This document shows, in pieces, positions 53,821 to 55,019 of a stretch of 64,000 nt of DNA (positions within the stretch are counted from its first letter, which is position 1; each line of letters begins with the position of its first letter). The position numbers and the translations under genes are program-made. Below the pieces are notes generated by a model that had not been told where the DNA came from, made no database searches, and saw nothing but the letters and a program-made list of their open reading frames with translations. The DNA is from Salpingoeca rosetta (taxonomy: Eukaryota; Opisthokonta; Choanoflagellata; Craspedida; Salpingoecidae): positions 1,206,109 through 1,270,108 of the forward strand of contig NW_004754925.1 in the NCBI RefSeq assembly GCF_000188695.1, read 5' to 3'.

Positions 53821-55019
53821 TGGCACGAAACATTCGCAGCGCCAAGGCAAAGGGCGCACGGTTCCAGAGCGAGGTGCAGGCCATGCTGGTGGACGCCATC
53901 CCTGCGGTTGCAGCACGTGACATCATCAGCACGCCCATGGGCCGAAACGGCGCAGATCTCCTGCTTTCCCGAGAGGCGCAGGGCCTGTTTCCCTTTGCTA
54001 TCGAATGCAAAAACACAGAGACGCTCCAGTTCTGGCGGTGCATGAACCAGACTCTGCGGCACGCCCATTTGGAGCGTGAGGACGTGCTGCCGCTGCTGGT
54101 GTTCAAACGCAACCGCCGCCAGCCATACTGCGCCCTGCGCTCAGCAGATTGGCACTCGCTGGCAACGGCTGCCCACGCCCCAGCAACCGCCATCCTCGAG
54201 GCCGCAGCGCAACGGTATCAAGGCAAACCGGGCGCCAGAAAGAAGACCAAGGCCAAGGCCAAGGCAGCCGCAGATTCGAAGAGCAGCAACAAGAAGACAA
54301 ACGCAAAGAAGCCAGCAGCGACAGCATCCAAAGCAGCAAAGGCAGCGAAAGCTGCATCAAGCGAAACAGCAGTGCGTGACGCCAGCAGTGGCAGTGCCAA
54401 AGAGATCATGGCAAGCCTGATTATCCCAGAGTCCGTGACGGGCCCAGCAGAGCAGCTGTACCGCCTGTATGGTATGGAGGTGTGCTCGGATCGCCTCAAC
54501 ATCTGGCGATATCTGGAGGCATTGGAGAAGGAGTGCGCGCGCACGTCACTGCTGCCGTATTTGACACTGCGCCGGTGCAAGCAGAATGCACAGCTCACGT
54601 TCCTTGATGCACAACACAGCTTCGACGTGCTACCGTTCCACGTGTTCCTGGACATATTCGCGACCGCGGCCGCGAGTGGATGGCAGTATGACACAACCAC
54701 CAGCATCGCAACCATCGCACGCCCACACAACACTTCAGCAGCAACAGGGGCAGCAGCGGGAGCAGTTGCAGACGCGCACACCAGCGCCCACGGCGTAACA
54801 GCTGCGCCGAGACCTTCAACGGCAACGGCAACGCCTTTCGTGGATGATGGCGCGGGTTTGGCAGCTGCACACATGGCAGCATCATCGCAGTTTTCGGTTG
54901 GGGTGAGCACTGGTGCGGCGGCAATATGCATCTCTGGTGGTGGTGGTGGCGTTGGTGGCCGGCAGCCGCTAACCATCATTTCCCATGGAGCGCCCACAGC
55001 GGTGCACGTGCAGTGGTGA
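53821..55019 (+). CDS. Intronless PD-(D/E)XK nuclease-like protein of phage type
   Basis: A single 399-residue frame with no intron, in a region where every other protein gene has several. Residues 9-115 resemble small PD-(D/E)XK endonuclease-like proteins of tailed phages: KGARFQSEVQAML, DIISTPMGRNGADLLLS, FPFAIECKNTETLQFW, then VLPLLVFKRNRRQPYCAL. The probable metal/catalytic set is D46 (GAD), E62 and K64 (IECK). A Lys/Ala-rich linker covers about residues 135-195. Residues about 205-290 (LYGMEVCSDRLNIWRYLEAL, LLPYLTLRRCKQNAQLTFLD, HSFDVL) repeat the spacing of the first half without the E-x-K pair. The tail is Ala/Thr/Gly-rich. The start at 53821 is the first Met after a CA-rich leader. 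The homology call is from memory of the family; the biological role is unknown. Confidence 0.75.

Follow-up and report, generated by a model that had tools for sequence, protein, structure and literature searches.

The window considered here is a stretch of 64,000 nucleotides of the choanoflagellate Salpingoeca rosetta (assembly GCF_000188695.1, contig NW_004754925.1, positions 1,206,109 to 1,270,108), and our subject is a gene within it that encodes a phage-type nuclease domain, followed in the same chain by a basic linker, a probable degenerate second copy of half of that domain, and a low-complexity tail (Table 1). An initial annotation, made from the sequence alone, had seen an open frame of 399 codons at this place; the frame is real, but starts with an ATG at position 53820 and not at 53821, and runs with no internal stop to a TGA ending at 55019, within a stop-free run of 445 codons that ranks third in length among the window's runs free of N. 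The term intronless applies here to the coding frame only, the 5' untranslated region and splicing near the low-complexity end lying outside that statement. When the S. rosetta genome (54,378,996 bases, 49 contigs) is searched, the gene is found as a single detectable copy. The identity of the host agrees with a caveolin exon of this genome, which over 123 residues is identical to PDB 9DN1, the S. rosetta caveolin according to PMC12330381.

Table 1. Features of the nuclease gene and of its neighbours, in positions of the window
Feature	Position	Strand	Basis
Nuclease gene, uninterrupted coding frame, 399 codons and TGA	53820..55019	+	frame read; sole match in genome
PDDEXK_15 / PHROG_244 nuclease domain with Hjc-like predicted fold, residues 1-127	53820..54200	+	profile matches, alignment, model
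Active-site stretch, D46 ... E62-C63-K64	53955..54011	+	invariant in 24/24 rows; at least 95% conserved among 121 relatives
Lys/Ala-rich basic linker, residues 128-192	54201..54395	+	composition; pLDDT under 50 at 137-192
Probable degenerate second copy of the nuclease domain's second half, catalytic K lost, residues ~208-290	54441..54689	+	profile, hhalign, model
Ala/Thr/Ser/Gly/His-rich low-complexity tail, residues 304-399	54729..55016	+	GC3 0.51 vs GC2 0.70; pLDDT under 50 at 296-381
First-coding-exon frame of WD40 gene (probably WDR82/Swd2), head-to-head with nuclease gene	53183..53356	-	exon end approximate
CHCH-domain gene, right-hand neighbour	56570-56944	-	PF06747, 28.4 bits vs cut-off 27.2

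The phage-type layout proposed by the initial annotation is borne out by profile searches with the N-terminal residues. Residues 1-127 match PHROG_244 (E 4.1e-18, no curated cut-off being given for this profile), as well as the Pfam family PF24608 (PDDEXK_15, 'Phage putative PDDEXK endonuclease'), whose curated cut-off of 27 bits is passed both by the domain (33.6 bits) and by the whole protein (30.3 bits). The domain is matched by 73 of 50,697 phage records in tblastn at E <= 0.01, including 56 named Synechococcus, Prochlorococcus or 'Cyanophage'; among the best 40 of these 73 matches, Methanoculleus viruses come first (E 1e-14, 41% identity) and cyanophages next. Among 45 candidate database proteins of ~70-222 amino acids, 27 pass E 0.001, each of them a stand-alone protein of 111-126 amino acids, and 23 of the 27 carry PF24608. 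A profile scan of viral contigs gives at least 578 relatives among at least 600 stretches (80 relatives were kept for later comparison), and a scan of prokaryote genomes gives 33 among 101 stretches, 31 of the 33 coming from metagenome-assembled records. Matches of PHROG_244 are also observed in the Haloferax volcanii and Sulfolobus acidocaldarius controls.

GADLLLS and FPFAIECKN, proposed to hold a PD-(D/E)XK active site, are both present, and D46, E62 and K64 bear the numbers announced. These three residues are invariant in an alignment that sets the S. rosetta domain beside 23 database relatives (the 27 less four near-duplicates), whose identity to the S. rosetta domain is 34-46%. Conservation was also followed among 121 relatives, after removal of two divergent rows (L118 and L119): of the columns with at least 95% conservation S. 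rosetta keeps all 14, and of those with 90-95% all 5 (19/19 in total), and its retention then drops with falling column conservation (6/9, 7/14, 10/26, 8/30 and 2/14). Such a full retention of the core despite high divergence suggests that the nuclease is very probably maintained for its catalytic function, and its sequence makes it likely to be catalytically active.

The fold was checked on a structural model, a prediction other than PD-(D/E)XK being one that would speak against this assignment: the predicted fold is a PD-(D/E)XK fold of the Hjc kind, nearest to the archaeal Hjc Holliday-junction resolvases, with mean predicted local distance difference test (pLDDT) values of 89-95 for the ten-residue blocks between residues 11 and 110. 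The second half of the domain consists in the model of a strand (59-65), a helix (71-85), two strands (90-96 and 103-107) and a helix (108-118). Archaeal Hjc/Hje enzymes (1gef, 1ob8, 2wcw) share this predicted fold and the D...E-x-K residues in the same element order; the family profile has no match among PDB sequences at E <= 1. It is thus nearly certain that residues 1-127 belong to the PDDEXK_15 / PHROG_244 family and adopt an Hjc-type fold. PHROG_244 is named 'RusA-like', although 23 of the 27 database relatives of the domain carry PF24608 and the fold matches Hjc, and this label fits poorly because the predicted fold is closest to archaeal Hjc. No match at E <= 10, a limit at which HMMER filters drop most very weak matches, was obtained for RusA profiles in Pfam or NCBIfam, nor in Pfam for VRR_NUC, the ERCC4 nuclease domain or tandem HhH profiles; a FAN1 or XPF paralogue is rejected for want of such a match.

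The PF24608 / PHROG_244 proteins of tailed phages (cyanophages, Methanoculleus virus Blf4 and others) thus have in common with S. rosetta the whole N-terminal domain, the triad and the invariant residues. In contrast to these stand-alone proteins, the S. rosetta domain lies within a nuclear-encoded protein of 399 amino acids with a linker and a C-terminal region, both of which are missing from the 116 relatives of the fetched loci (whose stop-to-stop length does not exceed 239 codons). The Lys/Ala-rich linker described by the initial annotation is found as such (14 K, 1 R, 17 A and 2 acidic residues within residues 134-185), and we take it to resemble a nuclear-localisation signal or a histone H1 tail. 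Everything beyond it had been read as a low-complexity tail, which holds for residues 304-399, whose coding status is the least certain of the protein's parts; residues ~208-290, in contrast, are probably a decayed second nuclease half-domain that had been missed. This second-copy reading is new in this analysis, and was formed before the similarity tests were made.

Several lines of evidence make it fairly probable, on sequence and model, that residues ~208-290, within the C-region (residues 193-303), are a degenerate second copy of the nuclease domain's second half. In the full-length model, the C-region forms a helix (209-215), a short strand (220-222), a helix (228-242), two strands (248-253 and 262-272) and a helix (273-285), in the same order as the elements of the nuclease domain's second half, and the block 271-280 reaches a pLDDT of 92. 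Read side by side, 'DRLNIWRYLEALEKECARTSLLPYLTLRR' of the C-region parallels 'EKLNIWxALEQAE...PLLVFKR' of the family, MEVCS occupies the position of ECKN, and no K stands opposite the catalytic K, either in the ungapped reading or in the hhalign alignment. A 23-row profile from which the S. rosetta protein was excluded gives residues 193-303 a score of 10.4 bits, matched by none of 5000 shuffles and none of 2035 non-family pieces (six-frame open reading frames of the fetched loci, some of which are not real genes). In a separate test, the piece 205-295 scores 11.0 bits, whereas none of 1000 shuffles exceeds 7.6. Similarly, hhalign aligns the C-region over 63 columns in the correct register (E 1.1e-4, score 30.0), the highest null scores being 19.9 for 200 shuffles and 21.5 for 200 non-family pieces. 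In the first 10 VIA fold-match rows, the model ranges (given as first and last residue only) all end within residues 280-289, and part of the Hjc match may therefore come from the C-region. The codon-position GC pattern of the C-region resembles that of the nuclease domain, a likeness to be read with the 113 of 1778 stop-free windows elsewhere in the 64-kb window, real coding ones included, that are equally strong in this respect. Relatives of the C-region were found neither in Pfam, NCBIfam and PDB sequences nor elsewhere in the S. rosetta genome, at the limits used, and phage records give two chance-level matches only (E 7).

Other results weigh against a second copy, and favour an alternative in which the phage-derived nuclease domain works alone, as a homodimeric resolvase or as a FAN1-like monomeric flap nuclease, the C-terminal part being an unrelated lineage-specific tail. 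BLASTP detects no similarity between the N and C halves of the protein; a wider profile of 123 rows gives the C-region 7.9 bits, equalled by one of 5000 shuffles and one of 2035 non-family pieces, and 38.7% probability in hhalign (E 3.2e-4, run without a null); the C-region modelled in isolation is predicted as helices at low confidence (pLDDT 41.9); and FAN1, as described in the available part of PMC4103454, is a precedent for a monomeric virus-type nuclease within a eukaryotic protein. This alternative has to account for close-family profile and profile-profile scores that exceed every null run beside them, and for an alignment in the correct register with a matching element order, and we regard it as possible but doubtful. 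The probabilities given here to the alternatives overlap with that of the preferred explanation and with one another.

Taken together, the locus is on balance best explained by a nuclear PDDEXK_15 nuclease derived from a phage or an archaeal virus, which would act as a branched-DNA endonuclease and probably carries a dead second unit. According to this explanation, a PD-(D/E)XK gene of a phage or archaeal virus would have entered the S. rosetta nuclear genome, and its product would work in the nucleus as a Mg2+-dependent endonuclease with branched DNA (junctions or flaps) as its substrate; the basic linker may both carry it there and hold it on DNA. The dead C-terminal unit would replace the partner of an Hjc-type dimer, leaving one chain with one live and one dead site, and one strand of the branched substrate would then be nicked, rather than both being cut symmetrically. 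Branched DNA is slightly more likely than not to be the substrate, and the pseudo-dimer nickase, which draws on the second-copy evidence together with analogy, is offered tentatively. A more elaborate scenario, in which S. rosetta captured a phage Holliday-junction resolvase, doubled it within a single gene, inactivated one of the two copies and fastened the pair to DNA through an H1-like linker, to form a single-chain asymmetric nickase of branched nuclear DNA, is more doubtful still. Organelle targeting (organelle DNA turnover was one of the roles suggested by the initial annotation) is provisionally rejected, as the N-terminus starts directly inside the aligned domain and hence no presequence is apparent.

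Known systems offer partial precedents for these steps. In the archaeal COG1395 proteins (for example PAB2104), an active and an inactivated Hjc-like domain are predicted to be joined in one chain, with nicking raised as one possibility (PMC1189080, available part); they have a helix-turn-helix between the domains and a migrated catalytic residue, where the S. rosetta protein has a basic linker and an active site of the usual kind. XPF-ERCC1 and MUS81-EME1 likewise pair a catalytic nuclease domain with a non-catalytic relative, and the central domain of ERCC1, which keeps the fold and has lost the catalytic residues, is believed to contribute to recognition and positioning of the substrate (PMC6320978, available part); these are, however, two-chain enzymes with ERCC4 and (HhH)2 domains, neither of which gave a profile match to the S. 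rosetta nuclease at E <= 10. VRR-Nuc enzymes that stand alone are similar to Hjc and act on four-way junctions as dimers, cutting with two active sites, whereas FAN1, a eukaryotic repair protein that contains such a virus-type module, has lost dimerisation and cuts flaps (same part of PMC4103454); FAN1 belongs to a different Pfam family. If the single-chain nickase of S. rosetta is real, it might take the place of FAN1: a six-frame search of the S. rosetta genome without exon joining, from which introns may hide a FAN1 gene, gave no match to the VRR_NUC domain (PF08774). ERCC4 was located at two places in the S. rosetta genome.

The neighbours of phage relatives were surveyed for 10 proteins of two loci. 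At one phage locus (L007), the relative lies among genes for DNA polymerase, DnaB-like helicase, metallophosphoesterase, ribonucleotide reductase and dUTPase, and at the other (L010) beside a primase and an SbcC-like nuclease subunit, as would be expected around a phage nuclease that resolves branched DNA; the same argument, with adjacent primase or helicase, has been made for gp51, another small phage family (PMC1189080, available part). This replication and recombination setting argues against a role in cell-autonomous defence, in which the nuclease would degrade foreign DNA of viruses or engulfed prey. Choanoflagellates are bacterivorous, and other parts of their immunity have bacterial links (PMC12424679, available part), but PADLOC gave one weak match (E 0.03), which falls at residues 238-281 of the C-region. 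Defence is consequently an improbable role, and membership of a defence system is rejected for want of a useful PADLOC match.

Coming back to the phage- or virus-derived nuclease, an origin in a tailed phage or an archaeal virus is highly likely, and horizontal acquisition from such a source, one of two routes put forward by the initial annotation, is well supported by the family's distribution: the domain is seen in phages, in viral contigs, in mostly metagenome-assembled prokaryote contigs, and once in S. rosetta, the sole eukaryotic genome searched. The transfer may have preceded or followed the choanoflagellate radiation. Retroposition, the other route, finds no support and is not needed, since in phages each relative is encoded by one uninterrupted frame, and intronless genes are common enough in S. 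rosetta (1103, or 8.79%, in the available part of PMC7971027), which also makes the absence of introns weak evidence by itself. The GC content at third codon positions (GC3) of the N-domain is 0.74, whereas the median is 0.35 both for 80 viral loci (1 reaching 0.70) and for 33 prokaryote loci (5 reaching 0.70), so either the gene has adapted to the high GC content of its host or its donor was itself GC-rich. A tree, advised by the initial annotation, was built from 124 rows and 117 columns and does not single out a donor. The row nearest to the S. rosetta domain is L087, a contig of a Methanoregula metagenome-assembled genome (MAG; Shimodaira-Hasegawa-like approximate likelihood-ratio test 86, unstarred), but this join may be compositional, because the S. 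rosetta branch is long (2.09 changes per column) and high GC3 is common to L087, L093 and L008 (0.83, 0.71 and 0.81, respectively); L087 is rejected as evidence of the donor. Both this row and one of the best phage-record matches are methanogen-associated (L087 and L093, Methanoregula MAG contigs; Methanoculleus viruses), which may be an effect of GC composition.

Other sources were considered. A giant virus is rejected, as 11 viral fold matches reach E <= 0.001 and the 3 named ones are all phages, those to Marseillevirus, Pandoravirus, Pithovirus and other large eukaryotic viruses having E above 1 (among the best 50 of 55). A plasmid is rejected with 1 match among 72,556 plasmid records (E 0.01). 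Proteins of ~220-700 amino acids searched with the N-region or the C-region gave none at E <= 0.001, which has little bearing on eukaryotes, as the S. rosetta protein itself is absent from the matches. None of the titles and abstract openings listed by literature searches describes the gene, and the main text of a survey of S. rosetta transfers (PMC7971027, available part) contains neither 'nuclease' nor 'endonuclease', and 'bacteriophage' in a reference title only; its supplementary tables may list the gene.

Could the gene be a transferred sequence under no present selection, or an unexpressed relic? The single copy and the long tree branch would agree with this, but the most conserved positions are all kept despite that branch, the reading frame is intact, and the codon-position pattern of the N-domain and the C-region is like that of coding sequence (within the limit given above for the C-region), making a relic quite unlikely. 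Contamination of the assembly by prey-bacterium or phage DNA, for which nothing speaks besides the phage-like domain, can be set aside, as the frame lies at ~1.26 Mb of the contig between the WD40 and CHCH-domain genes, amid CA/GT microsatellites, and carries a linker and a C-terminal region with no counterpart in the phage relatives.

To our knowledge, few phage-type replication or recombination enzymes have turned into eukaryotic nuclear genes, and here a single-celled relative of animals encodes in its nuclear genome a DNA-cutting enzyme of the phage or archaeal-virus type with an intact active site. Being single-copy, with catalytic residues kept, in a host that is a laboratory model organism, this nuclease is directly testable, and FAN1, with its virus-type module, provides an instructive precedent (PMC4103454, available part). 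If the dead second copy is real, one gene would show the passage from a symmetric dimeric resolvase to an asymmetric nuclease, as in XPF-ERCC1 and MUS81-EME1; if the single-chain nickase is real, the live-plus-dead arrangement that eukaryotes otherwise reach through these two complexes would have been rebuilt from phage parts.

The multi-exon WD40 gene runs opposite to the nuclease gene, with a likely ATG at 53356. The two genes stand head to head, their start codons separated by ~460 bp, and a housekeeping promoter may drive the nuclease gene, as the initial annotation suggested. Among natural proteins in the PDB, the WD40 product best matches an S. pombe-style 'WD repeat-containing protein C824.04' (9scd, E 3e-24), which we take to be a Swd2/WDR82 homologue; the head-to-head arrangement given by the initial annotation thus stands, and the name WDR82 is probable on that assumption. 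Between the nuclease gene and the next gene, a run of N at about 55691-56500 lies beside GT microsatellites. Further along, a tRNA-Thr(CGT) gene (57341-57415) is followed by a tandem array (57372-58181, within the region 57341-58183) of ~6.6 units of ~130 bp, each containing the 3' part of the tRNA (GGTTCAAATCC) and a CT-rich sequence, in an apparent tandem expansion of the tRNA 3' half.
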